A stretch of 64,000 nucleotides of DNA, from contig JAFDZV010000033.1 in NCBI GenBank assembly GCA_018266795.1, positions 1 to 64,000 on the forward strand, given 5' to 3'. The DNA comes from Bacteroidota bacterium. GTDB lineage: Bacteria > Bacteroidota > Ignavibacteria > OLB7. The notes beneath the pieces were generated by a model that saw only the letters and a program-made list of their open reading frames with translations, had not been told where the DNA came from and ran no database searches. Made by a program: the position numbers and the translations under genes. Every line of letters starts with the position of its first letter. The first letter of the stretch is position 1. Shown in pieces: positions 17,524 to 41,043 of this stretch.

Positions 17524-20052
17524 ATGATGGCAACTATCGGCTTCTCATACAGTCGCGTACGGGCGCGGAGATTTCTTTTCTGGGCGGTGATTGCGGTCTG
17601 CATGCTTGCGGTGCAGGCGGCGCCGGCTCAACGAGCGGTTCCGCCGCTGGATCAGGCAACGGGCGGCACACGCTACATCATCGCCTTCCCCGATACGATT
17701 GCCACAAGCCTGGACAGCCGATACCCGAACACGCGGGTGCAGGGGGAAACCTCCGTGTGGATCTACTCCGAGAAGAAGAACGACGTAAGCATCGTCGAGT
17801 ATCAGTCCGGAAGCAGAACGGATCTGACGCTCCAGCCTGGTGAGATGAAGCACGTGGTGCTTGCACCGGGAACCGTTGTGGCAGAGATGAACCGGGTTGT
17901 GCATCGCCCGGTGTACAACGTCGCGTCGCGATTTCCGGTTGTGCTCTACTGCTTCATTGCAACGATACAGGGAATGGAGGCCTGGACCCCTGCACCGCTC
18001 GAGCAGTGGGGGATGCGATACTACGCAGCGGCCGTGCCGGGGGAGGTTGTGAACGATGTTCTGCCAACCGGCGGGCCGCATCAGATCGATCATCTGCAGC
18101 GTGAGTCCGGGGGGGAGATCCTGATCATCGGCTCGCGGAACGGAACGCACGTCTCGATCATCCCGCCCGCTGCTGCAAGCCTTGCAGGAAGCCCGTCCTA
18201 CTCGGTGGTGCTGAATGAAGGCGAGGTCTATCAGGTCACCAGTCTGGTTGACACATCTGCGGAGGCGGGCGGCCAGAGCGATCTGGCTGCAACACTCATC
18301 GAGTCCGACAAGCCGGTCGGCGTAGTGAGCGGCAACCGGCGCGCGCGCGTGCTTCCGGAACCCACCGGCATTCTGAACAATGTGTACGGCAATCTGCTTG
18401 CCGAGTGGGTGCCGCCGGTTCGGATGCATGGAACGGAGTTCGTCTTCCTTCCAACGTGGGACATGCTCCGGCCCGGGCAGGGAGGGAAACCGGAGCGTTC
18501 GCGCGAGTTCGTTCGTTTCTACAACACCAGCGGCGCCGGGACCAGCAGTAACTATTACGTGGTGCCGGGGGGCGTTGCGCATGTCCCGTTCTCTACGCGA
18601 ACTGATACGCTGAGCGAGCTTGCGCTCGGAATGCCGGCGGCCGTGTACTTCAGAAGCAGCCTGCCCGCCATGGCGATGATGCACTCCTCCTGCGTTGTAG
18701 GGTTCGAGGGGACAACGCCATGTGCCGACGGAATTCCATGCGTCACCTACACCGGGTGGGCGCCCTACATGGCGGAGTTGATTCCGCGCGAGCGATGGGG
18801 AAGCTTCGCGCCGTTCTTCATCCCCGCAAGCCCGGGCGGGATGCAGGGGATCGTGAGCGTGGTGGCGGACAGCGCCGACGCGCGAAGAATCTATCGCGAC
18901 GATGGTTCACCGTTTCCCTTCACGCGAAGCATCGTGGGAACGCGGCTGGTATGGGGAACCGATACGGCGCCTGCTCCGGGCGGTCACTGGATCGAGGGCC
19001 GCAACGGAGCACGCTTCACCGGCATCGTGTATGGTTCCATGCCGGGAAGCGAACAGTTCCGGCCGCAGAGCAGCGGGAAGGCACAGTACGAGGAATACAA
19101 CGCCCTCTCCTACGGCTACCCGCTTGTCCCGCGCTTCACATGGACGGGCCCGCCGGACTCCATGAGGATCGACATCAGCGGCTGCAGATGCTGCCGGGAG
19201 ATGTCTGTGAGCATTGTGGAGTTCAATGCAAACCCGGGCGGGCTTGCGTCGATCACACTCGATCCCGCAACACTGAACAATGCGCAGCTGGTGATGATGA
19301 ACCCCGCTCTTTCTGAGGACATCCCCGGAAGCACAAGCGCGTTGGTGAAGATTGTCGTGGTCGATCCGTCGAAGCCCGCGCATGCCGATCTCGTTATCAG
19401 AGCTCATACCGGCAAAACCATCGCACTGCCGCCGTACGATTATTCCGGTCAGGACATTGCGACGACGCCTGCGCGCGGGCTGGACTTCGGAACCGTGAAG
19501 CAGGGGAGTACGGCCGCGAAGATCTTCACGCTGACCAACATGCTGAACGACAGCCTTGTCGTGACCGGGATGACTCTGTATCACGGCGCCACCTCAGGCT
19601 TCACACCCCCCGCAATCCAGTTTCCATTCATCCTCAATCCGGGAGCGTCCTACGATCTCAGCGTCGGCTTTCAGGCAAACGGTGCCGGCGGAAGCGCCGT
19701 GGACACGTTGAGCATACAGAGTCCCTGCGGCGACCTGTTGCTGCCGCTCGAGGCGCGGCTTACAACCGCAGCAGGCGTGGCAGCGGAAGGGGATGCGGAG
19801 TTCGGCTGCAGCATTGCCGGGGGCGGCAGTCCGCATCTGGACCTGCGGCTGAGTGAACGCACGGAGGTCGCAGCGGAGTTGTACGATCTGCTGGGGAATC
19901 GCCTCCGCATCCTTGCTTCTGGCATCATGGAGCCGGGAGAACGCTCCATTGCGATCGATCGCGCCGGGCTTGCCGGCGGCATCTACTACTGCCTGGTAGT
20001 AACTCACAGCGGGCGGCGCGTGCTTCGGGTGGTGATGCGCGGGGATGAGTGA
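17524..20052 (+). CDS. Surface-protein array member 1: IgGFc-binding-like head, Ig-like module, T9SS-type tail
   Basis: 842 residues from ATG 17524; ATGs at 17500 and 17527 are equally possible, all leading into the signal peptide RRFLFWAVIAVCMLAVQAAPA. The head (about 37-530) carries the array motifs: LDQATGGTRYIIAFPDT, IQGMEAWTPAPLEQWG, VGVVSGNRR, MMHSSCVVGFEG, a PCADGIPC loop, GWAPYMAEL, HWIEGRNGARF and YEEYNALSYGYPL. This pattern resembles the N-terminal domain of the IgGFc-binding protein family. One Ig-like (ASH-like) module follows (GLDFGTVKQGSTAAKIFTLTN), then a C-terminal domain of T9SS type (ELYDLLGNRLRIL, GLAGGIYYCLVVTHSG), lacking the usual terminal Arg. Most divergent of the upstream members. 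Probably exported and surface-anchored; ligand unknown. Confidence 0.85.
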   Translation: MMATIGFSYSRVRARRFLFWAVIAVCMLAVQAAPAQRAVPPLDQATGGTRYIIAFPDTIATSLDSRYPNTRVQGETSVWIYSEKKNDVSIVEYQSGSRTDLTLQPGEMKHVVLAPGTVVAEMNRVVHRPVYNVASRFPVVLYCFIATIQGMEAWTPAPLEQWGMRYYAAAVPGEVVNDVLPTGGPHQIDHLQRESGGEILIIGSRNGTHVSIIPPAAASLAGSPSYSVVLNEGEVYQVTSLVDTSAEAGGQSDLAATLIESDKPVGVVSGNRRARVLPEPTGILNNVYGNLLAEWVPPVRMHGTEFVFLPTWDMLRPGQGGKPERSREFVRFYNTSGAGTSSNYYVVPGGVAHVPFSTRTDTLSELALGMPAAVYFRSSLPAMAMMHSSCVVGFEGTTPCADGIPCVTYTGWAPYMAELIPRERWGSFAPFFIPASPGGMQGIVSVVADSADARRIYRDDGSPFPFTRSIVGTRLVWGTDTAPAPGGHWIEGRNGARFTGIVYGSMPGSEQFRPQSSGKAQYEEYNALSYGYPLVPRFTWTGPPDSMRIDISGCRCCREMSVSIVEFNANPGGLASITLDPATLNNAQLVMMNPALSEDIPGSTSALVKIVVVDPSKPAHADLVIRAHTGKTIALPPYDYSGQDIATTPARGLDFGTVKQGSTAAKIFTLTNMLNDSLVVTGMTLYHGATSGFTPPAIQFPFILNPGASYDLSVGFQANGAGGSAVDTLSIQSPCGDLLLPLEARLTTAAGVAAEGDAEFGCSIAGGGSPHLDLRLSERTEVAAELYDLLGNRLRILASGIMEPGERSIAIDRAGLAGGIYYCLVVTHSGRRVLRVVMRGDE

Positions 20053-20170: not shown

Positions 20171-23080
20171 ATGAAGACATGTGTTAGCACGCTGCCGGCG
20201 CGAATCGCGCTTCTCACGATACTTCTGTGCGCCTTCTGCGCTCCAGCGCTTCTTCGCTCGCAAAGTACGCCGGTGCTGGACCCCGCCGCGAGTGGAACGC
20301 TCTACTATGTGGCGTTTCCCGATACGACTTCCAACGTTATCGATCCGCGTTATCCGAACCAGCGTGTGACGCCGGAGGTATCGCTCTTCATCTTCTCCGC
20401 CGTGAATACGCATGTCCGGATCACGGCGCCTCCCTCCTACACGAACACGGTGACGCTGCAGGCGGGCACGGTGGCCGCCGTTACGCTGCCGGCGAACTCC
20501 TACGTCACCACGATCAACAACGTGGCGACAAAGGTATACAGGGTGCAGGCGGACGATCCGATCGTGCTCTACTGCTACATGGCAACCACGCAGGGCGCGG
20601 AGGCGTGGACGCCGGCTCCGGTATCGTCGTGGGGGAAGAGTTATCGCTCCGCGTCGATCCAGGGTGAAACCGTGCAGGATATCGGCGTTGCCGGCACGGT
20701 GGAGATACCGAGCACGCCGAAGGGAGCACCGGCGGAGATGCTGGTGCTCGCGGCATACGACAGCACTGTTGTCACGCTCTCGCCGCCGAGGGGCGTATCG
20801 TTTGCCGGGAATCCGCCGCTGGCATTCACGCTGAACGCCGGCCAGGCATTCCAGGTGCAGAGCCGGGTGACGGTTGTTTCGCGTGATACGGTTCAGGACG
20901 ATATCGCCGGCACACGCATCATGGCCAACCATCCCATCGGTGTGATCAGCGGCAACACGCGCACACAGACGGAGCCGGACAACGTTATCGGTGGCCCTGG
21001 AATCAAGGGGAACATTTATCGCGCCCCTCTCTTCGAATGGCTTTCGCCGGCCGAGGAGTACGGCACACGGTTCGTCTATCTGCCGACGTGGGACAGCCAT
21101 CGTTCGGGGATCGGAAGCAGCGCCGAACGCCTTCGCGAGCATGTACGCATCTACAACGACTACGACACCACGTTGAGGGGAAGTTATTATATGTCGTCGA
21201 GCGGGGCAGCGTCCGTTCCGTTCGTCATCCCCACCGATTCATCGCTGCTTCTGAGCGTGGTGGGCAATACCGCGTTGCTGTTTACCACCGATGGGCCGGC
21301 GCAGGCATTCATGCATTCATCCGCCATCATCAAGTTCGAGGGCTCCACGCCATGCTACGGCGGCGTGCCATGCACCGACTGGTCCGGCTGGGCGCCGTAC
21401 ATGGCGGAGATGACGCCGCGCGAACAATGGACCAGCTTCGCGCCCTACTACGCGCCGGTCAATCCCGGCAACATGCTCCACTACATCAATGTTGTGGCGG
21501 ATACGGTCTCGGCACAAAACATCGTGCGCGAGGATGGGTCAACATTTCCGTTCACTCGCAGAATTGCCGGAACGGATCTCATCTGGGGCTCGATGGCCGT
21601 GTCGCCGGGGGGGACGCACTGGCTGCGGGGACGTTTCGGTGCGCGCTTCGCGGGGGTGGTCTACGGGCTGATGCAGGGAGAGGAGGCGTACCGGCCCAGT
21701 GCCATCCGGAAGAAGGATGATGGAAGCGCAGTTGCCGGCGGCGGCTCGCATGCTCCCGGCGCGCAGGCGGCAGAATACGAGGAGTACAACGCGGTCTCCT
21801 ACGGCTATCCGCTCGCTCCGCGCCGCAACCTGAACGGGGTTGGTGACACGATGAAGGTGGACACCACATGGAACTGTGAGACGCTTGCGATCTCGGTACG
21901 GGCAATCAGCGCCAACCCTGTTGGATTGCGATGGGTGGAGTTCGAGGACGGGACGGCGGTCAACGCAACCATCGTTGGAAGCGATCCGCCGTTGCTGGCG
22001 AATCTTGCCGGGCGTACGAACGCCACCGTGCTGGTGAAACCGGTGGATCGCAGTCGCGATGCATCGGGCATCGTGGACATCATCGATCGCACCGGACATG
22101 CCGCCAAGGTGCTCTACATCTATCAGCATGACGCGCTCCATGCTGCCCCCGCAGCCGGCGTGCCGGCGTTCGGCAACGTCGAGGCCGGTGACTCCGCCAG
22201 TGCGAACGTTGCGTTCACGAACAACACCGGCCATGCGATTCATGTGAGGGAGGTGAAGCTGCAGAAGGGCATTCACCAGTTCACGATCACGTCCGCCACA
22301 CCCGCAATGCCGCCGCTGGATCTCGCTCCGGGGCAGGCTCTCCGGCTTGTAGTGAAGGCTCGCCCCGATGCGCGCGACACGCTCTACAGCGACAGCATCA
22401 TCTGCCGCTTCGGTTGCGACTCCATGTTCGTACCGCTTCGTGTTACGGCGGCAGAGCCGTGCGTTGCAATCGGTGATCTCGTGTTCGGCACATTCCGCAG
22501 CGGAGCCGCGCCTGCGAAGGCGCTCAGCCTCGCGATCTCCAATCACGGCAACGGCGTCATGACCTTCCACAATCCCGTAGTCGTGTTCTCCGATACGAGC
22601 TTCTCAATGCCGCAGTCAGAGCGTGCCAGGCTGTTGCCACCGTTCAGGCTGGCGCCGGGAGAGAATACGGCGATCGACGTCACGTTCACACCGCCGTCCG
22701 CGTTGGGGAGCTACAGAACCGTTGCCACGTTCTTTACGGACGCAACATGCGGGCGCGACTCGTCGATCTGGAGTGCGGACGTGGTGGCCTCCTCCTCCGT
22801 GAACGCCGCGATCCAGGATGCCCGGGGATACCGGTTGACCGTGGAGCGTGATGGAGATGCGAACGCCGTGGTGCACTATGCGCTGCCCGGCGGAGTGCGC
22901 GGATCGCTGCATGTGTACGACGGCAACGGAATGGAAGTCCCGGGGCTTGCGATGACGATCGAGGAGGGAGGCGAGCGGATCGTTGTGTGGAACACTGCCG
23001 GCCTTGCCAGCGGTCTCTACTACTGCGTGATGACAACCGGCAGCGGCAGCCGGGTGGCCCCCTTCGTGATCGTGCGCTAG
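20171..23080 (+). CDS. Surface-protein array member 2: IgGFc-binding-like head, two Ig-like modules, T9SS-type tail
   Basis: 969 residues; ATG 20171 opens a signal peptide (ARIALLTILLCAFCAPALLRSQ) and no better start exists. Head about 30-545 with LDPAASGTLYYVAFPDTTSN, YCYMATTQGAEAWTPAPV, VISGNTRT, HSSAIIKFEGSTPC, the PCYGGVPC loop, GWAPYMAEMTPREQW, HYINVVADT and YEEYNAVSYGYPLAP. A linker with NPVGLRW and DIIDRTGHA repeats in all long members. Two ASH-like Ig modules (about 660-870: FGNVEAGDSASANVAFTNN and LVFGTFRSGAAPAKALSLAI, each with a Cys pair) precede the C-terminal sorting-type domain (877-969; VYDGNGMEV, LASGLYYCVMTTGSG, ending APFVIVR). Nearest relative in the array is member 3, the next gene. 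Spacing to member 3 is 290 bp with no evident terminator. Confidence 0.88.
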   Translation: MKTCVSTLPARIALLTILLCAFCAPALLRSQSTPVLDPAASGTLYYVAFPDTTSNVIDPRYPNQRVTPEVSLFIFSAVNTHVRITAPPSYTNTVTLQAGTVAAVTLPANSYVTTINNVATKVYRVQADDPIVLYCYMATTQGAEAWTPAPVSSWGKSYRSASIQGETVQDIGVAGTVEIPSTPKGAPAEMLVLAAYDSTVVTLSPPRGVSFAGNPPLAFTLNAGQAFQVQSRVTVVSRDTVQDDIAGTRIMANHPIGVISGNTRTQTEPDNVIGGPGIKGNIYRAPLFEWLSPAEEYGTRFVYLPTWDSHRSGIGSSAERLREHVRIYNDYDTTLRGSYYMSSSGAASVPFVIPTDSSLLLSVVGNTALLFTTDGPAQAFMHSSAIIKFEGSTPCYGGVPCTDWSGWAPYMAEMTPREQWTSFAPYYAPVNPGNMLHYINVVADTVSAQNIVREDGSTFPFTRRIAGTDLIWGSMAVSPGGTHWLRGRFGARFAGVVYGLMQGEEAYRPSAIRKKDDGSAVAGGGSHAPGAQAAEYEEYNAVSYGYPLAPRRNLNGVGDTMKVDTTWNCETLAISVRAISANPVGLRWVEFEDGTAVNATIVGSDPPLLANLAGRTNATVLVKPVDRSRDASGIVDIIDRTGHAAKVLYIYQHDALHAAPAAGVPAFGNVEAGDSASANVAFTNNTGHAIHVREVKLQKGIHQFTITSATPAMPPLDLAPGQALRLVVKARPDARDTLYSDSIICRFGCDSMFVPLRVTAAEPCVAIGDLVFGTFRSGAAPAKALSLAISNHGNGVMTFHNPVVVFSDTSFSMPQSERARLLPPFRLAPGENTAIDVTFTPPSALGSYRTVATFFTDATCGRDSSIWSADVVASSSVNAAIQDARGYRLTVERDGDANAVVHYALPGGVRGSLHVYDGNGMEVPGLAMTIEEGGERIVVWNTAGLASGLYYCVMTTGSGSRVAPFVIVR

Positions 23081-23370: not shown

Positions 23371-26298
23371 ATGATCGTACAGAAGATTCCCATGAGTACA
23401 GATGCGATTACGATACTACTGCGACGTGTTGCGTTGGCGACGTTGCTCCTGATCACTTCGGCATGCCACATGTTGCATGCACAGGCCCCCGATCCGGTGA
23501 TGGATCCCAGCGCAAGCGGAATGCTCTACTACGTGGCCTTCCCGGCAACGGTCTCCAATACGCTCGATTCACGGTATCCGAACATTCGAGTACGTCCGGA
23601 GACGGCGTTGTTCATGTTCTCCGCCGTGAAGACACGTGTCAGGATCACCGGTCCTTCCTACTCGAATGTGGTGAGTCTGAATCCCGGCACGTTGACGTCG
23701 TTCGACCTTCCAGCGAATATTTCAATCACCACGATCAACAAGGCGTCGCCGAGTGTGTTCAAGGTGCAGGCGGACGATCCCATCGTTCTCTACTGCTACA
23801 TCGCGGACATACAGAGTACGGAGGCATGGGCGCCGGCGCCGGTTGCATCATGGGGAACCAGTTATTGTTCCGCCTCCATTCCGGGCGCGGTGGTGCAGGA
23901 CATCGGTATCGCCGGTGAGACCGAAATCCCAACCACCCCGAAGGCGGCGCCGGCGGAGATCGTGGTGCTTGCCGCGTACGACAGCACAGTGGTTACCGTG
24001 GAGCCACCGACCGGTATTTCGCTGGTCGGGAATCCGCCGATGACATTCGTGCTGAATGCGGGGGAGGCGTTCCAGGTGCAGAGCCGTGTCACGGCAACCC
24101 AGCACGATACTGTTCAGGACGATATTGCCGGCACGCGCATCAGTGCCAGCCATCCGGTTGGCGTCCTCAGCGGCAACACGCGCACGCAGGCAGGGCCGGA
24201 CAGCGCCATCGGCGGACCAGGTCTCAAGGGGAATGTCTATCGGGGCTGCCTCTTCGAATGGCTCGCGTCGGTTGACGAATACGGCAAGCACTTCGCCTAT
24301 CTCCCCACATGGGACAATCATCGTGCGGGAATCAACTCCTCGGCGGAACGTACGCTGGAACACGTGCGCATCTACAACGCCGGCAAGGCGCTTCTGACAG
24401 GGCGCTATCTGGCGGCGAACGGATCGGGGCCCGTTCCATTCTCGGTGGCGACGGATTCATCGCTCCTTCTGGATGTTCGCGATGATGCGGCTCTGCAGTT
24501 CGTTACCGATGCGCCCGCGCAGTTGATGATGCATTCATCCGCCATCATCAAGTTCGAAGGCTCTTCGCCATGCTTCCGCGGCATTCCGTGCACCGACTGG
24601 TCCGGCTGGACGCCATACATGGTGGAGATGACGCCGCGCGAACAGTGGACCACCTTCGCGCCCTATTACGCGCCGACCAACCCGGGCAACATGCAGCACT
24701 ACATCGGTGCTGTTACGGACACGGTCTCGGCGAAGAACATCGTGCGAGAGAATGGGGCGGCGTTTCCGTTCACCAGGAAGATTCCCGGGACGGATCTGAT
24801 CTGGGGCTCGATGTCCGTATCGCCGGGGGAGACACACTGGCTGCAAGGCAAGAACGGTGCGCGATTCGCGGGGACGGTCTATGGGTTCATGCAGGGCGCC
24901 GAAGCATATCGCCCGGGGGTGATCAGGAAGAAGGATGGTGGAAGCGCGATCGCCGGCGGCGGCACGCGCGTGCCGGGCGAGCTGCATCCGGCCGAGTACG
25001 AGGAATACAACGCCGTGGCGTACGGTTATCCGCTTGCTCCGTGCAGGTACGTGATCCGGACCGGAGACACGATGAGGATCGACACGTCGTGGAACTGCGA
25101 GACGCTCACCATCAACATGCATACGATCAGTGCCAATCCGGTTGGGCTGCAGTCGGTTTCCTTCCAGCCGGGCACGGCGGTCAATGCAATGCTTGTCGGG
25201 AGCGACCCGGCTCTTCTGTCGGACATTCCGGGCCGCACGAAGGTGACCGTCCTGGTGAAGCCGATCGATCGGAGGAAGGACGCATCGGGCATCGTGAACC
25301 TGATGGACCGTACCGGCAAGACCGACCGGGTGCCGTATGTGTATCTGCACGACGAGCTTGCGACCACGCCGGCCAACGGGCGGCTGGACTTCGGCAATGT
25401 GCTTCTGGGGAGTTCCACTCCGGCGGATCTCACGCTCGCGAACAACACCACGCATGTGATTCACGTGGCCGATCTGCGCATGGTGAAGGGGCTGCGGCAG
25501 TTCGCGATCTCCACCATCAAGCCCGGCAGGCCGCCGTTGGACCTGGCTCCCGGGCAGAGCCTGACGCTCACGCTCCTGGCGGCGCCGGACCAGCGTGGCG
25601 GTATCTACGAGGATACCGTTCTCTGCCTGTTCGGATGCGACTCGGTTCAGGTTCCGGTTCGTGTTGTCACCGCCGTGCCCTGCGTCTATGTGGGCGATCT
25701 CGCGTTCGGAGCGTTCCACTCCGGCGTCACACCGGCCAGGACTCTCAGCCTGAAGATCTCCAACCACGGCAATGGGAGGATGACGTTCCGCAATCCGGTG
25801 GTGACGTTCTCGAGCCCGGACTTCTCTGTGACGCAGGCGGAGAAGAACAAGCTTCTGCCGCCGTTCGTTCTCCTTCCCGGACAGGACGCCACGATCGATG
25901 TCACCTTCCAGCCGCCGGCGGCGCTTGGTGTGTACAGTACCGTTGCCACGTTCTATACCGATGCAACGTGCGATCGCGACACGTCGGTCTGGACCGCCGA
26001 GGTTGTGCAGGCTTCGTCCGTTGGTGCAACGCTGTCCGATGCCGAGGGGTACCGGTTGGAAGCGGAGAGTCATGAAGGGCGGAGCGTTGTGATACGCTAC
26101 GCGATGCCGCGCGGTGTTCATGGGTCGCTGGATGTGTATGACGCGGCAGGAAAGCAGATTGCTGGGCTTGCGGCGGAGATCGATGAAGGAAGCCAGAGCC
26201 TGGTGTGGAACACTGCCGGGCTGGCCGGCGGAACATACTACTGTGTGATGACCACAAGGGGCGGAAGCCGTATGGCGCCGTTCGTTGTTGCGCGTTAG
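23371..26298 (+). CDS. Surface-protein array member 3: IgGFc-binding-like head, two Ig-like modules, T9SS-type tail
   Basis: 975 residues from ATG 23371; ATG 23392 (MSTDAIT) would shorten it by seven residues and keeps the signal peptide (RRVALATLLLITSACHMLHAQ). The architecture equals member 2 almost position by position: head with LYYVAFPATVSN, YCYIADIQSTEAWAPAPV, VLSGNTRT, SSPCFRGIPCTDWSGW, PREQWTTFAPYYAP, GTDLIWGS and YEEYNAVAYGYPLAP; two Ig-like modules (LDFGNVLLGSSTPADLTLAN and LAFGAFHSGVTPARTLSLKI); tail VYDAAGKQIAGL, LAGGTYYCVMTTRGG, ending APFVVAR. Members 2 and 3 are therefore the product of a full-length duplication, later diverged. A strong stem-loop (26338-26372) follows 40 bp after the stop. 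Expected to be exported. Confidence 0.88.
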   Translation: MIVQKIPMSTDAITILLRRVALATLLLITSACHMLHAQAPDPVMDPSASGMLYYVAFPATVSNTLDSRYPNIRVRPETALFMFSAVKTRVRITGPSYSNVVSLNPGTLTSFDLPANISITTINKASPSVFKVQADDPIVLYCYIADIQSTEAWAPAPVASWGTSYCSASIPGAVVQDIGIAGETEIPTTPKAAPAEIVVLAAYDSTVVTVEPPTGISLVGNPPMTFVLNAGEAFQVQSRVTATQHDTVQDDIAGTRISASHPVGVLSGNTRTQAGPDSAIGGPGLKGNVYRGCLFEWLASVDEYGKHFAYLPTWDNHRAGINSSAERTLEHVRIYNAGKALLTGRYLAANGSGPVPFSVATDSSLLLDVRDDAALQFVTDAPAQLMMHSSAIIKFEGSSPCFRGIPCTDWSGWTPYMVEMTPREQWTTFAPYYAPTNPGNMQHYIGAVTDTVSAKNIVRENGAAFPFTRKIPGTDLIWGSMSVSPGETHWLQGKNGARFAGTVYGFMQGAEAYRPGVIRKKDGGSAIAGGGTRVPGELHPAEYEEYNAVAYGYPLAPCRYVIRTGDTMRIDTSWNCETLTINMHTISANPVGLQSVSFQPGTAVNAMLVGSDPALLSDIPGRTKVTVLVKPIDRRKDASGIVNLMDRTGKTDRVPYVYLHDELATTPANGRLDFGNVLLGSSTPADLTLANNTTHVIHVADLRMVKGLRQFAISTIKPGRPPLDLAPGQSLTLTLLAAPDQRGGIYEDTVLCLFGCDSVQVPVRVVTAVPCVYVGDLAFGAFHSGVTPARTLSLKISNHGNGRMTFRNPVVTFSSPDFSVTQAEKNKLLPPFVLLPGQDATIDVTFQPPAALGVYSTVATFYTDATCDRDTSVWTAEVVQASSVGATLSDAEGYRLEAESHEGRSVVIRYAMPRGVHGSLDVYDAAGKQIAGLAAEIDEGSQSLVWNTAGLAGGTYYCVMTTRGGSRMAPFVVAR

Positions 26299-26387: not shown

Positions 26388-26488
26388 TCCGGCAACAAGG
26401 TCTTGCTGAACATACCACTCCGGCAACAACGCTCCCTCTGGGAGTATGTTCTTCATTGTGGCAGTCATAATTCATGTACGGAGCAGGC

Positions 26489-31554: not shown

Positions 31555-31741
31555 GTGTTCCGCCGGGCGGATTCCACTGGACGCGGATGCGGTTCCCGCC
31601 GTAGGTTGCGGTTCAACGTGCGCCGGCCGCTCAACGCCGGCTGCTCGCGACCCGCGACGTACGCCGCCTGTATCGCAATACGATATTCCGGCATGCGTCC
31701 GCCCGGACCGATCTGCGCCTTCAACCCGAGACCGCATTCAT

Positions 31742-34558
31742 ATGAGTATGAGTTCCAATCGTACGCGCTTCCTACAGTGGTCGGCCGCGTGTGCGTTTCC
31801 GCTGCTGTTCTGGCTTACACTCTTCGCGTCGGGACATGCGCAGGCGGTTGAGCCGGTGCTGGACCCGGATGCTGCGGGAACGTCGTATCTGATCGCCTTC
31901 CCGGACACCACCGGCAACAGGATCGATCCGCGCTTCCCGAACAACCAGGTGCAGACGGAGGCCTCGATCTGGATCTTCACCGCCGTCGCCAACACGGTCA
32001 CGATCACACGCGACGGCGTGCAGACCGTTCTTCGGCTTGCTCCCGGGGCGTTCCAGCAGTATCTGTTCCAGCCGCAGGATCTGGTGGACTCCATCAACAG
32101 GCCAACGCGGCCGATGTGCAGCGTGAAGTCCGAATATCCGGTGGTGATCTACTGCTTCTACATCAGCGCGCAGAGCATGGAGGCATGGACACCGATGCCT
32201 GTGGAGACGTGGGGTACGGAGTACCACTGTGCGATGGCGCCGTGGCAGTTCGTGAAGAATGTGGACTCGCTCACCAGGACGAAGGTGATCACGAAGCAGA
32301 AGCCTGCCCCGTCGGAGTTGCTGGTGATTGCAGCGTTCGACAGCACCCATGTCAACTTCGTGCTCCCGGCCACCGGCACATGGGCGAAGGCGCCGAGCGG
32401 TACCATTACGTTGATGAGCGGACAGGCGTATCAACTGCAGAGCGGGACGGACAGCACGCTCCAGAATCTGGATGGCGCCATCGTGCAGGCGGACAGGCCG
32501 GTGAGCGTGGTGAGCGGCAACACGCGCGCGAAGTTCTCCGCCGATGAATCCGTTACCAGCAATGCGGCGAAGGGTATGCTGGCGGAGGCGATGACGCCGG
32601 TTGAACAGATGGGGCGCCGCTTTCTCTTCATGCCGGACTGGGACGCGCATCGCCCCGGAATCGGCGCCGCCGCGGAGCGGACGCTGGAGTACGTACATCT
32701 CTGCAACGCTCTCGGTGCACCGGACAGCGGCTACTATCTGCAGCCCGGAGGGGCCAACCGTGTGAAGTTCAACGCAGGACCCAATGCAGTTGCGGAGTTC
32801 AGTCTGAGCCAGGCGCTGGCAACGTACTACGAAACCGCGAGGCCCGTGCAGGCAGTGCAGTATGCAGGCGACATCGTACACTTCGACGGCTCCACGCCGT
32901 GCGGCGGCGGCCCGTGTGTGAGCTACAGCACATGGGCGCCCTACATGGTTACGATGGTTCCGCGCGAGCAATGGGTAACGTTTGCTCCGTTCATTGCCCC
33001 GGCGAGCCCTGGCACCATGGTGCACTACATCAATGTTGTTGCCGATACCAATTCGTTTGCAGGCATCGTGATGGAGGATGGAACGCCCTTTCCGTTCACG
33101 CGGAGAGTGACGGGAACCGATCTGATCTGGGGGAGCAGAGGGTTGAGCCCGGGCGAGGCGCACTATCTGACATCGACCAACGGCGCCAGGTTCTGGGGCT
33201 TCGTATACGGCGAGGCGGATGGCGCCGAGGACTTCCGCCCTGGAACCACGGCCGAGTACGAGGAACGCTCCGCGCTCTCCTATGCCTATCCGCTTTCCCC
33301 TTCGCGGAACTCGCTTCTTCCGCTGGACAGTGTGGCCATCGACTCCTCCTATCAGACATGCATGAGGGGGATTCTGCACTATCATTCCGTGAAGGGTACA
33401 GCCGTTGGCCTTCGCTCCGTCCGCCTCGATACGGGGTCTGCCAATGCACGGCTGATCGTTGTGCTTCCCGCACGGGAGGACGAGGTGGTTGGCCGCTCGG
33501 ATGTCACGGTGATGGTTGTGCCGCTGGATACTCTTCAACCGGTCAACGCGCACGTGATCTTCACCGATCGCACGGGGCGCACGATTCGCCGGACCTTCGC
33601 GGCCCGGCCATACGGCGCTCCTGCAAGCCCCAACCTGCTCACTTTCGACAGCCTCGCCGTTGCGAGCGGTCTTCGCAGGACCGTCACGTTCACCAGCAGT
33701 GCGCCGGGGAACGTTATCGCATCATCGGTGAACCTGTTGCACGGCGATACGCACTTCGTGATCGTATCCACGTCGCCACCGCTTCCGGCAACCGTGCCTC
33801 CAGGCGGATCGGTCACGGTAACCGTCGAGACCGTGAACGCGGCAACCGCAGTTGGTGCAGGCGACACGCTTGCACTGCACCTGGATTGCCAGGAGACCCG
33901 TGTGCCGCTTGCCATCGTGAAGTACGATGGCGCCGTGATCCAGGTCCCCGATCTGGACTTCGGAGTCTTCCGCTACGGCGTCGATGGCTCGCGTTCGATT
34001 CCTCTGAAGATCTGCAACGTCGGCGCGGGGCAGATCGGCTTCAGCAATCCGAACGATCCCGCCCGGCCGATCACCTGGGATGACCAGAAGCATTTCTCCA
34101 TTGCTCCCGCGGATCTGAGTGCCCTGGCGATTACGCTGCTCCATGCGGGCGAATGCATATCGCTCGATGTCTTCTGCGCACCGGCGGATACCGGCCGCGT
34201 CACCACCACGGCAAGGATCTGGGGAACAACGCGTCTGGAGCGTGACACATCGGTATGGACAGCCGTTATACATACTGGGGCGGGAGTGAATTCCGATCGT
34301 GTGTGGGGCGGACGGCTGGACGTGAGCCCCACACTGGAAGCGCTGCGCATCGACTATGCACTCGAAGCGGCCACAACTGTGCGGCTGGAAGTATTCGACA
34401 TGCAAGGCATCCGCCTGACTGTTCTCGCGGACGGGCGCATGGAGCCCGGCGAGCATCATGCCGTGTGGAGCACCGCCGGCATGCCGAGCGGCATCTACTA
34501 CGTGCGCCTTGCCGGCACTGGAGCCCACCGTGTTGTCTCCTGCATCGTCGTGCGCTGA
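31742..34558 (+). CDS. Surface-protein array member 6: IgGFc-binding-like head, two Ig-like modules, T9SS-type tail
   Basis: 938 residues from ATG 31742 (or 31748), which opens the signal peptide (FLQWSAACAFPLLFWLTLFA, cleavage after GHAQA). Head about 37-515: LDPDAAGTSYLIAFPDTTGN, IYCFYISAQSMEAWTPMPV, VVSGNTRAK, STPCGGGPC, MVPREQWVTFAPF, HYINVVADTNSF, GTDLIWGS and YEERSALSYAYPLSP. Middle: DRTGRTI linker and two Ig-like modules (LTFDSLAVASGLRRTVTFTS and LDFGVFRYGVDGSRSIPLKI, the latter with SNPNDPARPITWDD). Tail (853-938): VFDMQGIRLTVLADGRMEPG, GMPSGIYYVRLAG, ending CIVVR. The TWDD/TW(P)D insertion in the second Ig module is shared with member 7, suggesting these two are closer relatives. Exported; ligand unknown. 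Confidence 0.87.
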   Translation: MSMSSNRTRFLQWSAACAFPLLFWLTLFASGHAQAVEPVLDPDAAGTSYLIAFPDTTGNRIDPRFPNNQVQTEASIWIFTAVANTVTITRDGVQTVLRLAPGAFQQYLFQPQDLVDSINRPTRPMCSVKSEYPVVIYCFYISAQSMEAWTPMPVETWGTEYHCAMAPWQFVKNVDSLTRTKVITKQKPAPSELLVIAAFDSTHVNFVLPATGTWAKAPSGTITLMSGQAYQLQSGTDSTLQNLDGAIVQADRPVSVVSGNTRAKFSADESVTSNAAKGMLAEAMTPVEQMGRRFLFMPDWDAHRPGIGAAAERTLEYVHLCNALGAPDSGYYLQPGGANRVKFNAGPNAVAEFSLSQALATYYETARPVQAVQYAGDIVHFDGSTPCGGGPCVSYSTWAPYMVTMVPREQWVTFAPFIAPASPGTMVHYINVVADTNSFAGIVMEDGTPFPFTRRVTGTDLIWGSRGLSPGEAHYLTSTNGARFWGFVYGEADGAEDFRPGTTAEYEERSALSYAYPLSPSRNSLLPLDSVAIDSSYQTCMRGILHYHSVKGTAVGLRSVRLDTGSANARLIVVLPAREDEVVGRSDVTVMVVPLDTLQPVNAHVIFTDRTGRTIRRTFAARPYGAPASPNLLTFDSLAVASGLRRTVTFTSSAPGNVIASSVNLLHGDTHFVIVSTSPPLPATVPPGGSVTVTVETVNAATAVGAGDTLALHLDCQETRVPLAIVKYDGAVIQVPDLDFGVFRYGVDGSRSIPLKICNVGAGQIGFSNPNDPARPITWDDQKHFSIAPADLSALAITLLHAGECISLDVFCAPADTGRVTTTARIWGTTRLERDTSVWTAVIHTGAGVNSDRVWGGRLDVSPTLEALRIDYALEAATTVRLEVFDMQGIRLTVLADGRMEPGEHHAVWSTAGMPSGIYYVRLAGTGAHRVVSCIVVR

Positions 34559-34952
34559 TGTTGAAATACCCGGCCGTCGCAATGGGAGCATTGTGAATGA
34601 TGGAACCACATGCTTTGCATTGCCGTGCGACCATTTGCACCGATGCGGGTCTTGGTGTCCACGGGCCGGAACGAAGGATCGTCCCACATCTTCGTGACGC
34701 TCACGCGGCGAACCTCCGCGCGTGATTCCCGCTCGTGTACTCCGGCGCATCATGGCTTCCAGCGTGAGCGCTGCTACGCCATGAAGAACATGGCATGCAG
34801 TCCGCTTCCGCCGGCCGCCGCAACAACAGTTCCTGTCAACATCGAGATGTGCCTCGGAGCCTGCAGGCTTTGTAGCGCCCAACGATAGGAACCCCAAGGT
34901 CGAGGCAGCCGCTTCGATGTCTATCCACTCTTGCAGAGTAATAGGTTCTGCC
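34559..34952. other. Intergenic, no gene seen
   Basis: 394 bp between array members 6 and 7. Overlapping open frames on both strands have no family resemblance. No hairpin with U-tract and no promoter box could be supported. Confidence 0.5.
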
Positions 34953-37745
34953 ATGTCACACCCGCGACGGCATTGCACTGCCATCATTGCAGTTGCGGCA
35001 ACGATGTCATTTCTGATGCTTGCCCTGTGCGGCGAGATCGTTGCTCAGAATCAGATCCTGCGACTCGATCAGTCCACGGCCGGACGAGTCTACTACATCG
35101 CCTTTCCCGATACCACGAACAATACTGTCGATCCCAAGTATCCGATCAATGGGACAGAGAACGAGGCTTCCGTCTGGCTTTTCTCCGACGTAGCCAATCA
35201 CGTCGTCATCTCCAGCAAGGGGCAGCAGATCGATGCCGTGGATCTGGAGCCGGGAGTAATGAAGGTCTACACCTTCAGGCAGTCGGCGGTTGTGACGGAC
35301 ATCAACCAGTCGAGCTCGCCGGTGTTTCGGGTGGAGGCGGCAAAGCCGGTGGTGCTGTATGCATACCTCGCAACGAAGCAGGGGCTGGAAGCCTGGACCC
35401 CGATCCCGGTGGAGATGTGGGGAACCAGGTACTACGCCGCTGCAACCCCGTGGCAGTACGTGCAGGATTACGATGCGAAAGTCGGCATACCGAAGCCTGC
35501 ACCATCGGAGATCCTGATCATCGCGGCGCACGACAGCACGCAGGTCAGCATCGTCCGGGCTGCCGGCGGCGATCTGTACGGCAATCCAACCGTTGTGACG
35601 CTGAACCAGGGGGAGGCATTTCAGGTACAGAGCGGCGACGACTCGCTGCATCGCGACATCGCGGCAACCATCATTCAGTCCAGCAGGCCCGTCGGCGTCA
35701 TTTCCGGCAACACACGCGCCAGTTTTGGAAGCGATCATGCCATACGGGACAACGCGCAGAAGGGGATGCTGATGGAGTGGCTTACACCTGTCGATCAGCA
35801 CGGCAAGGAATTCGTCTATCTCCCGACAACGGACGAGCATACCTACAGTGCTCCGGTTCCGCGCGTGAACGAGTACGTGCGTGTCTACAACACGTCGGGG
35901 AATCAGATCAACGGAACCATCAAGGACAACAGCGCCGGCCCAGCTGCGTTCACGGTGAAACGCGATTCGCTTCAGGAGTTCAGGCTCTTCACATCCTTCG
36001 CTCTGCGGATCACGACGCAGGCTCCTGCGCAGGTGATGATGCACTCCTCCGATGTGGTCAACCTGCATGCAACGCTGCAGATCGGGAACGGCGGGCTTGC
36101 CTACGATTACTACCAGTGGGCGCCATACATGGCGGAGCTTACTCCGCGCGAGCAGTGGACCCGCTTCGCTCCGTACTATGCCCCCACCAATCCATCCACC
36201 ATGCAGCACTACATCGGCGTAGTTGCCGACACGGTGACGGCCCGTGGAGTTGTGATGGAGGACGGCACGGCGTTCCCCTTCTCGCATCGCATCAACGGCA
36301 CGGATCTGATCTGGGGATCGGCTCCGGTACAGCCCGGTAGGACGCACTGGCTTGCCTCCACGAGCGGCGGGAAGTTTACAGGCGTTGTATATGGGTTGAT
36401 GAGAGGTGAGGAATATTATTACGCCGAGGGAAACTACTATGTGGAGACCGAAGCGCTCTCCTACGGATACCCGCTCTCTCCGCATCGAAACGTTCTCGCG
36501 CCGCACGATTCGCTCCGCGTCGACAGTACGCGCAGCGGATGTTCGCAGATCACCTACAACGTTCGTGCAGTCAACTCCTCACCGGTCGGCCTGCGGTTCG
36601 CCGAGCTGGACACCTCATCGGTGAACGCGCGGCTGGTCCGGATCGATCCGCTCAGTGCCGAGGATGTTCTTGGCCGCTCGTCAGTAACGTTGAAGGTGAT
36701 GGCGGTGGACAGCACGCGCCCGATTCATGCGCGGCTGGTGTTCACCGATCGCACCGGAGCCTCCTCTGCCGTTACGTTCGATGCCAGGCCCGATTCGATC
36801 GCGTTCAACCCTTCGTCGGCCCTGCTCTTCGGCAGCACGGACGTTGGCTCCGTTGTCCATCGCGAGGTGACCATCACCAACACGCTTGCGCGCACCGTGG
36901 TGATAAGCCATGTGGATGTGAAAGGGGATACCGGTGTCTTCTCGGTCGTCTCCTCCATTCCCAGACTTCCCGCCACGCTGAAACCGGGTGAGGATCTCAC
37001 GGTAACGGTGGCCATGAACGCCAAGGAGGAGCGTTATTACTACGACACGCTTCTGGTGCCGATCGAATGCAGCACGATGTCCCTGCCGATGAATGGCGGT
37101 GTGAAGATCACGAGCATTCAGACCGGCGATGTGGACTTCGGCGTGAAGGCGCACGTGAGCACAACGACGGAGTACATGGAGATCACGAACGCCGGCACGC
37201 TTCCGCTTACGTTCAGCAACCCGGGCGATCCCGCACATCCCATTACCTGGCCGGACGCCGTGAACTTCAGTATCGCCCAGGCCTGGCAGGACAGCGTGCG
37301 CAATCTCGTGCTCGCCCCGAAGACCACGTTCCGCGTGCCGGTGAACTTCATTCCAACCGTGCCGGGTACGTATCGCACCGTGGCCCGCATCTGGGCCAGC
37401 ACACGCGACCTTCGCGATACCTCTGTCTGGACCGGTGTGCTCCGCGATTCAACAACGGGCGTTCGCGGCACGTGTGCTGAACCCGGAGTTTCGTCCGGGC
37501 GCTTGAGCGCATGGACGGAGGGGAGCATCCTCGATGTGCGATACGATGGTGTCGCAACCGGCCCGCTCCGGATCGAGCTCTACAATGCGCTCGGCCAGCA
37601 GCTTCGCGCCGCCGTGGCCGATGCTGTCGGGACAGAACGCTACGAGGTGCAATGGGATCTCACCGGCCTTCCCTCCGGCCGGTATTACTGTCGCGTTCTG
37701 GACGGCCCGTACACCGTGGTGCAGCCCATACCGGTAAGCTGGTAG
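34953..37745 (+). CDS. Surface-protein array member 7: IgGFc-binding-like head, two Ig-like modules, T9SS-type tail
   Basis: 930 residues from ATG 34953 (MSHPRRH), giving a compact signal peptide (AVAATMSFLMLALCGEIVAQ); ATG 34917 would add 12 residues. Head about 30-500: LDQSTAGRVYYIAFPDTTNN, YAYLATKQGLEAWTPIPVEMWG, VISGNTRAS, YYQWAPYMAELTPREQW, HYIGVVADT, GTDLIWGS and ALSYGYPLSP. The PCxxxPC loop of other members is missing (replaced by LHATLQIGNGGLAYD). Two Ig-like modules (LLFGSTDVGSVVHREVTITN; VDFGVKAHVSTTTEYMEITN with SNPGDPAHPITWPD) precede the tail (845-930; LYNALGQQLRAAV, LPSGRYYCRVLDG, ending PIPVSW). Probably exported and attached at the surface. Sequence otherwise unremarkable for the array. 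Confidence 0.87.
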   Translation: MSHPRRHCTAIIAVAATMSFLMLALCGEIVAQNQILRLDQSTAGRVYYIAFPDTTNNTVDPKYPINGTENEASVWLFSDVANHVVISSKGQQIDAVDLEPGVMKVYTFRQSAVVTDINQSSSPVFRVEAAKPVVLYAYLATKQGLEAWTPIPVEMWGTRYYAAATPWQYVQDYDAKVGIPKPAPSEILIIAAHDSTQVSIVRAAGGDLYGNPTVVTLNQGEAFQVQSGDDSLHRDIAATIIQSSRPVGVISGNTRASFGSDHAIRDNAQKGMLMEWLTPVDQHGKEFVYLPTTDEHTYSAPVPRVNEYVRVYNTSGNQINGTIKDNSAGPAAFTVKRDSLQEFRLFTSFALRITTQAPAQVMMHSSDVVNLHATLQIGNGGLAYDYYQWAPYMAELTPREQWTRFAPYYAPTNPSTMQHYIGVVADTVTARGVVMEDGTAFPFSHRINGTDLIWGSAPVQPGRTHWLASTSGGKFTGVVYGLMRGEEYYYAEGNYYVETEALSYGYPLSPHRNVLAPHDSLRVDSTRSGCSQITYNVRAVNSSPVGLRFAELDTSSVNARLVRIDPLSAEDVLGRSSVTLKVMAVDSTRPIHARLVFTDRTGASSAVTFDARPDSIAFNPSSALLFGSTDVGSVVHREVTITNTLARTVVISHVDVKGDTGVFSVVSSIPRLPATLKPGEDLTVTVAMNAKEERYYYDTLLVPIECSTMSLPMNGGVKITSIQTGDVDFGVKAHVSTTTEYMEITNAGTLPLTFSNPGDPAHPITWPDAVNFSIAQAWQDSVRNLVLAPKTTFRVPVNFIPTVPGTYRTVARIWASTRDLRDTSVWTGVLRDSTTGVRGTCAEPGVSSGRLSAWTEGSILDVRYDGVATGPLRIELYNALGQQLRAAVADAVGTERYEVQWDLTGLPSGRYYCRVLDGPYTVVQPIPVSW

Positions 37746-38184
37746 TTGGTTTCGTGGGATGAGCCGCAGCATGCCCCGGAACGATACGGGTTCGTGTGCC
37801 GTGGTGCCTGCGAAGGCGGCATTCCGCGTCCCGGGGTTCTTCGATTGGCGCGGATTTCTGCGCAGAATGCCGTGCCGGCACCGCCATCGTCGGTTTTTTT
37901 CAGTTGCCGCCGCGACGAAAACGCGGGCGGCGGGTCTTGTCATGCACAACGTAATGGATCACTCCCGCCCGGAGACCACTCGCCGGGCTTGCTCGCCAGC
38001 GGAAGTCTTCTGTTACCTATCTCGTCGTCGACCAATCATACAACAGGGACCATTGCAGTTGTTTTCGCCGATCGCGTAAACAGCATGCTGGACTATGCGC
38101 ACGAATTGCGATAAATTTGTGGTTCGGCCCTCATCCCAAGACGGCCTGTTGTTCAATCAAGACTCGCAAGGCGGAGAAGCTCTC
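37746..38184. other. Intergenic with probable promoter for array member 8
   Basis: 439 bp. The right part is less GC-rich and contains a perfect TAnnTTTG box (38112-38119). Open frames around 37750-38110 on the plus strand have no recognisable product. Confidence 0.5.
38112..38119 (+). promoter_or_regulatory. Bacteroidota -7 promoter box (TAAATTTG)
   Basis: Exact TAnnTTTG match, 65 nt before the start of array member 8. No clear TTG at the -33 position was found, so the call is provisional. It suggests member 8 can be transcribed separately from the rest of the array. Confidence 0.4.
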
Positions 38185-41043
38185 ATGCACGCACGTCGAT
38201 TGCTTCCCGGATGCTCGCCCCGGATATCGGTCCTATCCCTTCTGCTGGCGATTACCATGGTCACCGTGGCATCGGCCCAGTCACCCGCGCTCGATCCTAC
38301 GAGTTCCGGCACCAGTTTCATTATCGCCTTCCCCGATACAACAACCACGATCACCGATCCGCGCTATGTGAATCCGCTTCAGGACCAGATCGCGCTGTTC
38401 ATATACTCTGCGGTGGATAACCAGGTGCACGTCCACGGGCTGCGCCTCGATACGCTTGTATATCCAAAGGCGGGCAAGTTCCTGACTGTCCCGATCCAGA
38501 CCAACAACTTCACGACGGACAGCTCCTTTCTGGTCAACGCCGGAACCACGTCCAACAATGTGTTCCACGTTGATGCGCGCTCGCCGATCGTGATGTACTG
38601 TTATGTGATGACGAAGTTCGGCGGCGAGATGTGGACGCCGATGCCGGTGGAGAACTGGGGGAAGCAGTACTACGTAACCGGTACTCCGGGTGAGATCGTT
38701 GTCGATATGAAGCAGGTGCAGCGGAGCTATCAGCGGCAGAACCGCATGGGCTCGGTGAGCGTCGTGATCCTTGCCGCATACGACACAACGAACGTTACCA
38801 TCTATCCCACCGGTACATTCCTGAACGCGCCGCTGAAGGTAACGCTGAACGCAGGTGACGCCTACGAGATGGAGAGTCTGGTTGATACCATCGCCTCGCA
38901 CAGCGGGCTGCCGCAGCCGGATGTCGGCGGCTCGTTGATCACCTCCAACCGGCCCATCGGGGTGATCTCAGGCAACTCGCGCGCGCAGGTTATCAGCGAT
39001 GTCACCGCGGCAACCGGGAACTCGCTCAAGAATTGCGGGTACGAGTGGCTTGCGCCTTCCGAACAGTTCGGCACCACCTTCGTGTACATGCCCACCATGG
39101 ATTCCCGGCACCTTACCGGTGTTCGCAACGAGAAGGTGAGCGAGAAGCGCGGCTTCGAACAGGTGCGGGCCTATGGTGCATCGCAGGGCCTTTCGCGCAT
39201 CTACTATCAGGTGGACAGTGTCCATTACGACACCTCCATGCTCTCCAGCACGCGCATCATGGATTACAAGATCGAGGCCGTGAAGGCACGTGTCATCCGC
39301 GCGGACAAGCCCACGCAGGTGCTGCTGCATTCCTCCGCGGTATCGCGATACAACGGGACGGGAAAGCCCACGCCGAGCGTGGGCAACTACACCACATGGG
39401 GAGCCTACACCGTTCAGTTGATGCCGCGAGAACAGTGGACCACGTTCGCACCCTACTTCGCGCCGAGTTACCCGTTCGAGACGGCGCACTATATCAATGT
39501 GGTGGCGGACACGAGCCAGTTGGACAAGATCTACAACGAGGACGGTTCCCCGTTCGAGTTCAACATGGGGCAGATTCCCGGAACGGATCTGATGTGGGGC
39601 ACCGCGCAGATCACGACCGGCACCACGCACTACCTTGAAGGGCGCAACGGGGCCCGGTTCTATGCATATGCCTATGGAACACGCGAGGGGCTGGAGAACC
39701 AGACCACGATTACCAGTCTGGACTATCAGGAGGTGGTGGCGCTTTCCTACGGATATCCGCTCGCGCCGGGATACCGGATTCTTCGTGGATCCGATTCGGT
39801 GAAGATCGACACAAACCGTACGCCGTGCGGCCTTCATGTGAAGGCGCAGGCCGTGAACACCGATCCGCTGGGCTTCAGAAGCGCGAAGCTGGACAGCGCG
39901 AACAACCTCGCGCTGCAGTTCGTGGCGCCCGCCTCGGCGCCGGAGTTGATCGGCTACGGATCGGGCGAGTTCATGCTTGTGCCGGTGGATCCGCAGAAGA
40001 ATGCATCGGGCGTGCTGGTGCTTTCCGATCGGTCCGGAAAAACATGGCGCGTTCCGTACGGGTTCACCGCTGCCTCTGTCTCCGTCAATGCCGGTGTGGT
40101 GTTCGATCTGGGCAACGTGAACGTGAACGAGACGAAGGATACCGTGGTGGAGATCACCAACACGCAGACCTTCCCGGTCACCGTATCGCGCGTTCGTCTT
40201 GCTCTGGGCAATCAGTTGATGACGATCGACAGCACGGAGCCGGATGGCCCCGCGCGCATCCCGGCGGTGCCGGTAACGCTGGCACCGGGAGAGAAGCTGC
40301 GGGTGCATGTGCTGGCAACTCCGCATGTGAAGGATCGTGTCTACAGCGATACCCTTCGCGTCTCGCTCTCCTGCTACGACTTCCCGTTGCCGCTTCGTAT
40401 GGGCGCCGTTGGTCCGTGCATCCAGGTTTCGGATCTGGACTTCGGCGAGCTTACGCTGAATCAGTCGCGCACGCTGGTGCTGCGCATCTGCAATCAGGGC
40501 GGCGGCGTTGTGACGTTGAACAATCCTTCCGGTGATTCGGTGATCACATGGCTTCTCGCGAACTTCTCGATCACGCGCTCCGCGCTGGACAGCCTTCGCA
40601 ATGTTCAACTGGGTCCGGGTGCATGCCTGAATGTGCCGGTAACCTTCGTCTCCGCGGTGCCCGGGACGTTCGAGATCACGGCCCGCATATGGGCAAGCAC
40701 GCGCGATTGCCGCGATACTTCCATATGGCATGCAGTGGTAAAGAAGCCGCAGTCGCAGGGGGTCCCGGCGAGCACCGGTGCCGGCTATGCGATCACGTCC
40801 GTGCGACCCAATCCGTTCAGCAACCGGAGCGAGATCGGCTTCACGGTTGGCTCAGCGGGCGAGACCACCGTGGAGATCTACAACGCGGTTGGTGAGCGTA
40901 TGGCACTTCTCTACTCCGGCCGTCTCTCCGCCGGCGAGCATGCCGCGATCTGGGATGCGGCCGGCTTCCCCTCCGGAGTGTATCATTGCCGCATCACCTC
41001 CGGCGCCTGGGCGGCATCGCGCATGCTGATACTCGCGCGGTAG
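38185..41043 (+). CDS. Surface-protein array member 8: IgGFc-binding-like head, two Ig-like modules, classic T9SS tail
   Basis: 952 residues from ATG 38185, after GCGGAGAAG (Shine-Dalgarno); the open frame from 38095 is not signal-peptide-like. Signal peptide: SVLSLLLAITMVTVASAQ. Head about 32-520: LDPTSSGTSFIIAFPDTTTT, YCYVMTKFGGEMWTPMPVENWG, VISGNSRAQ, LMPREQWTTFAPYFAP, HYINVVADT, HYLEGRNGARF and ALSYGYPLAP. The Cys loop is absent (NGTGKPTPSVGNY). Two Ig-like modules (VFDLGNVNVNETKDTVVEIT; LDFGELTLNQSRTLVLRI). The tail has the clearest T9SS type A signature of the array: SVRPNPFSNRSEIGFTV, then IYNAVGERMALL, FPSGVYHCRI, ending LILAR. This supports the same export route for the whole family. 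Last gene of the array, ended by a strong terminator. Confidence 0.9.
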   Translation: MHARRLLPGCSPRISVLSLLLAITMVTVASAQSPALDPTSSGTSFIIAFPDTTTTITDPRYVNPLQDQIALFIYSAVDNQVHVHGLRLDTLVYPKAGKFLTVPIQTNNFTTDSSFLVNAGTTSNNVFHVDARSPIVMYCYVMTKFGGEMWTPMPVENWGKQYYVTGTPGEIVVDMKQVQRSYQRQNRMGSVSVVILAAYDTTNVTIYPTGTFLNAPLKVTLNAGDAYEMESLVDTIASHSGLPQPDVGGSLITSNRPIGVISGNSRAQVISDVTAATGNSLKNCGYEWLAPSEQFGTTFVYMPTMDSRHLTGVRNEKVSEKRGFEQVRAYGASQGLSRIYYQVDSVHYDTSMLSSTRIMDYKIEAVKARVIRADKPTQVLLHSSAVSRYNGTGKPTPSVGNYTTWGAYTVQLMPREQWTTFAPYFAPSYPFETAHYINVVADTSQLDKIYNEDGSPFEFNMGQIPGTDLMWGTAQITTGTTHYLEGRNGARFYAYAYGTREGLENQTTITSLDYQEVVALSYGYPLAPGYRILRGSDSVKIDTNRTPCGLHVKAQAVNTDPLGFRSAKLDSANNLALQFVAPASAPELIGYGSGEFMLVPVDPQKNASGVLVLSDRSGKTWRVPYGFTAASVSVNAGVVFDLGNVNVNETKDTVVEITNTQTFPVTVSRVRLALGNQLMTIDSTEPDGPARIPAVPVTLAPGEKLRVHVLATPHVKDRVYSDTLRVSLSCYDFPLPLRMGAVGPCIQVSDLDFGELTLNQSRTLVLRICNQGGGVVTLNNPSGDSVITWLLANFSITRSALDSLRNVQLGPGACLNVPVTFVSAVPGTFEITARIWASTRDCRDTSIWHAVVKKPQSQGVPASTGAGYAITSVRPNPFSNRSEIGFTVGSAGETTVEIYNAVGERMALLYSGRLSAGEHAAIWDAAGFPSGVYHCRITSGAWAASRMLILAR

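Follow-up and report, generated by a model that had tools for sequence, protein, structure and literature searches.

A tandem array of eight IgGFc-binding-domain genes in an Ignavibacteria genome: candidate T9SS-exported surface binding proteins

The occurrence of eight neighbouring paralogous genes in a single bacterial locus raises the question of what their products do and how the array arose. The window analysed here, a 64,000-nt stretch of DNA, belongs to a 5.97-Mb genome of a Bacteroidota bacterium of the class Ignavibacteria. At positions 17401 to 41043 of the window, eight consecutive genes (g1 to g8) are found on the plus strand, all of which are long, intact and uninterrupted open reading frames. 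This run had already been recognized in a sequence-only reading, which placed its start at 17524, an alternative start of g1, and which interpreted the genes as a locally expanded family of surface adhesins or matrix proteins. The reading favoured here, for which we consider the chances evenly balanced, is that the array encodes locally duplicated outer-surface binding proteins, which are exported via T9SS, possess a four-module head with an ASRAH fold and probably function as adhesins.

Layout, history and distribution of the array

The features of the locus are listed in Table 1. Spacers of 118 to ~690 bp separate the eight genes. The sequence-only reading had stated that there are no intervening genes, which holds true for the spacers as far as genes are concerned, but a MITE-like dispersed repeat is located between g4 and g5. 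This repeat (28677-28944, within 28634-28985) has a length of ~267 bp and 19-nt inverted ends, and a search of the genome yielded 27 matches, about a dozen of which are nearly full length at 79-87% identity. It is flanked by a second inverted pair (28634-28651/28968-28985), the ends of which recur alone elsewhere; the arrangement looks like the insertion of one repeat into another. The start of g6 is placed at ~31742 and not at the opening of the reading frame at 31247, because the segment 31490-31573 matches the spacer after g4. Sites resembling the hairpin past g8 occur at a similar frequency in shuffled sequence. Sigma-70-type promoters and terminators do not exceed the level of shuffled sequence, the promoter pattern TTG/TAnnTTTG has no full match, and no Rfam family matches within the window.

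Table 1. Coordinates of the array genes, spacer repeats and neighbouring genes (positions in the window)
Feature	Position	Strand	Description
HAD gene (left neighbour)	core ~16017-16721	+	haloacid-dehalogenase-like
g1	17401-20052	+	start either 17401 or 17524; predicted signal peptide; PF17517 head 17647-19131; one ASH/choice-of-anchor D domain; short, divergent T9SS tail
g2	20171-23080	+	predicted signal peptide; head 20276-21820; two Ig-like stalk domains; T9SS tail
g3	23371-26298	+	predicted signal peptide; head 23500-25041 (modelled); two Ig-like stalk domains; T9SS tail
Spacer before g4	26294-26424	+	recurs before g5 at 28984-29114 (85%)
g4	26474-28453	+	predicted signal peptide; head 26597-28144; without stalk; T9SS tail above curated cut-off
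Spacer after g4	28539-28622	+	recurs after g5 at 31490-31573 (86%); contains GC-rich hairpin
g5	29139-31127	+	GTG start at 29139 uncertain; head 29295-30818; without stalk; T9SS tail; nearest paralogue g4
g6	31742-34558	+	predicted signal peptide; head 31859-33301; stalk; T9SS tail
g7	34917-37745	+	predicted signal peptide; head 35064-36482; two Ig-like stalk domains; T9SS tail
g8	38095-41043	+	head 38290-39768; stalk; canonical RPNPF T9SS tail above curated cut-off
Terminator-like hairpin	41081-41109	+	13 pairs; directly past g8, the end of the array
Dehydrogenase E1 gene (right neighbour)	41415-43646	-	

The closest heads are those of the pairs g2-g3 and g4-g5 with ~68-69% identity, and g8 is the most divergent of the eight copies. 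Since spacer pieces on both sides of g4 recur around g5, the unit that was duplicated comprised a gene plus its spacer, ~2.7 kb. In a tree of 30 heads, g1 to g7 cluster with C46 and C19, two copies dispersed elsewhere in their genome (95/98), five of the seven copies of a sister species (G001) form a separate group (92/97), and g8 clusters with two sister-species copies (100/99). In the sister species, the head copies are spread over several contigs, often at contig ends. The orthologous site beside the HAD gene (G001:C33, ~300-1400) contains a decayed copy followed by the start of another one; in the decayed copy, module A of the head is joined to stalk sequence, most of the head is missing and the frame is lost near the tail. 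The right-hand neighbour of the array is not shared by the two species. Given the lineage-wise grouping in the tree, the repeated spacers and the decayed copy at the same site, independent local duplication and loss explains the history of the array, while homogenisation between copies would be an alternative reading compatible with the tree. The spacers and the tree thereby support the local expansion proposed before.

The protein kind itself is common. PF17517 (IgGFc_binding) has 21 matches in the genome of the array and, at E 1e-6, is found in 55 of the 247 genomes sampled from the phylum; among the matches listed, 23 genomes of the same class carry it, often with at least six copies. As a first look at the same-class genomes listed gave ~6 to 25 candidates per genome, of which at most nine per genome were scored, 21 copies are within the usual range of the class. 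The head subfamily is narrower: at E 1e-30 each of the five genomes of the order has it, compared to none of ~294 other sampled genomes of the phylum. Elsewhere in the phylum, PF17517 genes form tandem pairs and triples (e.g. in G080, G115 and G197), compared to eight genes here, and no other run of eight was seen in the phylum survey, the design of which did not target runs. Counting paralogues and comparing synteny, as suggested with the sequence-only reading, thus speaks for a local array with a decayed counterpart in the sister species, but not for a family that is rare in the class; judged from these sequence comparisons, the array appears to be an unusually long instance of a common protein kind with an order-level head subfamily. 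Two contigs labelled 'Armatimonadetes bacterium', JADZEY010000057 and JADZEY010000021, carry array-type genes, and these genes and the position of the genome among the relatives place the record in this order; its label is probably wrong.

Export signals and the Ig-like stalk

Hydropathy analysis agrees with the signal peptides claimed for all eight proteins: the N-termini combine a basic start with a hydrophobic core (Kyte-Doolittle values of 2.1-2.9 across 12 residues), which is followed by an AxAQ-like end in most copies. The C-terminal sorting-type domain, including the RPNPF motif of g8, could be confirmed as well, although only two tails exceed the curated cut-off of 23 for TIGR04183, namely those of g4 (23.4) and g8 (24.2). 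The other six lie below it; g2, g5, g6 and g7 score 13.9-20.2, g1 and g3 are not among the listed matches, and several tails lack a PNPF motif. A profile built solely from the tails of relatives recognizes all eight tails with 27-114 bits (E 1e-34 to 2e-7), whereas the maximum among 400 shuffled decoys is 5 bits. In a full-length model of g8 (pLDDT 84.9, pTM 0.67), the tail can be superimposed on the PorU C-terminal domain (6za2; Z 9.1, 85 residues, 2.4 A). The T9SS machinery was assessed by its SprA component: the genome encodes a SprA/Sov translocon with 941 bits (cut-off 200), whose neighbours are in frame, and at least 150 TIGR04183 tails. Signal-peptide-like starts and a T9SS component, the lack of which the sequence-only reading had named as an argument against its proposal, are thus both present. 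Based on the homology of the tails, the PorU-like tail model of g8 and the presence of SprA/Sov together with at least 150 TIGR04183 tails, export of the proteins via T9SS is likely.

An Ig-like stalk of the ASH/choice-of-anchor D type is found in six of the eight copies, while the head is directly joined to the tail in g4 and g5; both the stalk and its absence from these two copies had been missed in the sequence-only reading. The stalk of g1 has one recognizable Ig-like domain, whereas those of g2, g3, g6, g7 and g8 have up to two. With NF012200 (choice-of-anchor D, threshold 45), g3 and g7 score 47.0 and 51.3, g1, g2, g6 and g8 score 26.7-42.9, and g4 and g5 give no match. The modelled stalk of g8 superposes on SPD-2/ASH and PapD-like domains. 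The proteins resemble T9SS type A cargo with a choice-of-anchor D/ASH stalk in their signal peptide, Ig-like stalk and PorU-like C-terminal beta-sandwich; however, they differ from it in the six tails below the TIGR04183 score and in the lack of PNPF in several of them.

The IgGFc-binding head and its fold

The heads comprise 473-516 amino acids, share 34-69% identity and contain the motifs LDxxxSG, EAWTPxPVxxWG, VISGNTR, PREQW, HYINVV, GTDLIWGS, NGARF and SYGYPL, in line with the ~500-residue head and the motifs quoted earlier. The likeness to the IgGFc-binding domain is borne out by a Pfam profile search: all eight proteins match PF17517 over nearly the full profile (positions 6/7-297) with 76.8-102.9 bits, and chance is excluded, as all matches exceed the gathering score of 25.6 bits at E-values of 2e-21 to 3e-29. 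The profile matches of the eight proteins include no enzyme family, in agreement with the absence of enzyme-like residues noted before. PF17517 proteins of Bacteroidota-related genomes share with those of the array the head family, which is matched along almost the entire profile, a similar size and a signal peptide. A literature search, the coverage of which did not extend to subscription journals, found essentially nothing on bacterial PF17517 proteins. PF17517 takes its name from binding to the Fc region of IgG, a property not expected from a free-living bacterium.

In animals, FCGBP and the frog PRIT glue proteins, which carry an N-terminal IgGFc-binding domain, are extracellular components of mucus or glue (PMC9354016, PMC11237159). 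In frog skin glue, the IgGFc-domain protein is a major component, and a role in rigidity rather than in ligand binding has been suggested for its IgGFc domain (PMC11237159). The animal proteins and the array belong to a commonly named domain family, a likeness drawn from the family name and not from a comparison of animal sequences; in contrast to the array proteins, the animal proteins contain VWD or disordered repeats and lack a T9SS tail. Compared with viral models, the head matches best with FirrV-1-C4 from Feldmannia irregularis virus a (Q6XLX4), with a TM of ~0.43 across nearly the whole head at 9% identity; FirrV-1-C4 is possibly an IgGFc-type protein in a brown-alga virus.

Sequence searches revealed no solved relatives of g3 and none for the head profile at E 10. 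The AlphaFold2 model of the g3 head, which is based on 20 sequences, is confidently all-beta (pLDDT 88.7, pTM 0.88) and consists of tandem beta-sandwich modules, four of which are suggested by strand order: A (1-105), B (106-230), C (249-346) and D (347-475), with boundaries drawn by eye. Profile comparisons among 83 heads of the order relate A to B (E 4e-8), B to C (E 2e-10) and A to C (E 1.5e-7), with observed scores of 40-57 compared to 13-17 for the best column shuffles. A-D and C-D also score above shuffles, B-D barely so; judged from the profiles, A, B and C are clear internal repeats and D is a weaker one.

A comparison of the whole head with the PDB by Foldseek returned only chance-level global matches (TM ~0.1). 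When the chains ranked by Foldseek were aligned by VIA-align, the top four were all ASRT-family entries with Z 11.0 to 8.2, followed by 7.2, to be read against a background of ~7 here, Z 7-8 being frequent by chance. The best match is that of the predicted module C to 1nc7 (TM1070), with a Z of 11.0 over 104 residues and an rmsd of 4.1; the local Foldseek probability for 1nc7 is 0.99-1.00. Compared to a profile of ten ASRT sequences, modules A, B and C reach marginal E-values of 0.0017, 0.0026 and 0.012, align end to end in register and exceed all 60 shuffles each, whereas module D performs no better than shuffles. Module profiles of 20 rows were not significant in this comparison and became marginal once 83 rows were used. 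PF07100 (ASRT) has no match in the genome at E 1 and is not among the Pfam hits of the eight proteins.

De Souza and colleagues argued that members of the ASRT/ASRAH superfamily bind sugars and are arranged as dyads or tetrads within secreted proteins (PMC2739507). In TM1070, ligand contacts come from a His and a Cys in strand 2, and these residues of the SHEshChhN strand are also replaced in other ASRAH families (PMC2739507). In the array, the strand reads E-x-V-R/H-x-Y/C-N, in which the Glu and Asn are kept in g1 to g7 while His and Cys are replaced; by our reading of the alignment, the position of the ligand-contacting Cys is taken by an arginine (R290 in g3) that is conserved in 94% of the 83 heads. 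The full SHEshChhN strand of the ASRT-like family is absent. Taken together, the array shares with ASRT/ASRAH proteins the beta-sandwich fold of module C and the repetition of modules in secreted proteins, but differs from them in the replaced ligand-contact residues, in the marginal sequence similarity and in the lack of a PF07100 match. The modelled head fold resembles ASRAH, but without a match to PF07100 membership in the superfamily is not established. ASRT genes of Natrononativus and Deinococcus plasmids adjoin genes for D-arabinono-1,4-lactone oxidase, which fits the proposed link of ASRT to sugars.

Possible functions and competing explanations

In the favoured reading, each array protein would carry a Sec signal peptide and leave the cell via T9SS through its C-terminal domain, after which it would be anchored at the surface or released. 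The exposed head would form a string of four related beta-sandwich modules of the ASRT/ASRAH fold, kept away from the cell by the Ig-like stalk in the six copies that have one. Adhesion is their most probable function: the modules could bind polysaccharides or glycoproteins of the biofilm matrix, the own cell surface or neighbouring cells, and tandem duplication and loss would have produced paralogues whose heads have diverged and whose stalks differ in length. Secretion and the position at the surface are inferred, as are the class of ligand and the role in adhesion, and an adhesin or matrix protein is the best guess, helped by the predicted head fold. Glycan binding is suggested by the proximity of module C to ASRT/TM1070, a predicted sugar-binding superfamily that occurs in tetrads, and makes a reasonable, if unproven, case. 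A bolder version is that the PF17517 head is a tetrad of ASRAH-type sandwiches, that PF17517 proteins are generally multivalent lectins and that the array is a lectin set displayed by T9SS; this is a tentative idea, which we regard as clearly less probable than the favoured reading. For a widespread extracellular domain, the repeat structure, the ASRT-like fold and the conserved arginine at the expected pocket provide a concrete sugar-binding hypothesis, and the array supplies heads that have diverged in nature, as well as stalk-less variants of a single protein, for binding comparisons. It also exemplifies lineage-specific duplication and loss in T9SS cargo.

The proteins could instead be structural components of a matrix or coat, in which beta-rich modules provide an extracellular matrix or surface layer with rigidity or self-association without recognizing a specific glycan and copies are kept for dosage. 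The beta-rich modular head with its Ig stalk and the rigidity proposed for the frog-glue domain (PMC11237159) would suit this explanation, and purifying selection and the architecture common to the copies would agree with a mechanical role of all of them; however, the heads differ in 31-66% of their amino acids, which goes beyond the needs of dosage, and the module fold resembles ligand-binding domains, so that we consider this unlikely. Less probable still, and quite unlikely, is that duplication and loss were selectively near-neutral in a genome with many repeats and much T9SS cargo, and that the array as such has no special role. The decayed copy in the sister species, the frequency of PF17517 across the class, the more than 20 MITE-like repeat copies in the genome and the divergence of several tails point in this direction, but all eight copies are intact long reading frames under purifying selection.

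The latter is indicated by pairwise dN/dS ratios of 0.24-0.54 for all 28 head pairs, averages that may hide single sites and that were obtained at high, partly saturated dS values of 0.8 to 2.1. These ratios also bear on the proposal that the copies are alternative or recombining surface proteins serving phage evasion or antigenic change. Eight diverged paralogues in tandem, the clustering of copies by species in the tree and the uneven synonymous identity of g4 and g5, which is high at both gene ends and suggests patchy exchange (p 0.003-0.017 depending on the penalty), are in keeping with such a variation cassette. However, a gene conversion scan of the 28 pairs gave no other clear tract and only weak values, and a scan of IMG/VR confirmed no head relatives. 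The array contains no homopolymer of at least 8, no tandem repeat above a score of 33 and no inverted pair of at least 40 nt, and thus lacks the switching repeats or invertible segments of phase-variable surface loci. We therefore regard a variation cassette as highly improbable. The sequence-only reading had also considered selection for diversity and phage evasion, both of which remain unsupported in view of the dN/dS ratios, the absence of phase-variation repeats and gene conversion limited to one pair.

Several genes upstream of the array are worth mentioning. Adjoining minus-strand genes at 13700-15811 encode a CCP_MauG di-haem peroxidase and an MbnP family protein, a pair that resembles MbnH/MbnP; a MauG-type gene adjoins the HAD gene in the sister species, too. 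A single reading frame at 1265-3928 encodes an 887-aa fusion of nucleotidyltransferase, hexapeptide repeat and phosphoglucomutase/phosphomannomutase domains. The gene at 4452-8393 encodes a protein of 1313 aa, which combines DUF7948 with SBBP beta-propeller repeats, an Ig domain and a T9SS tail.
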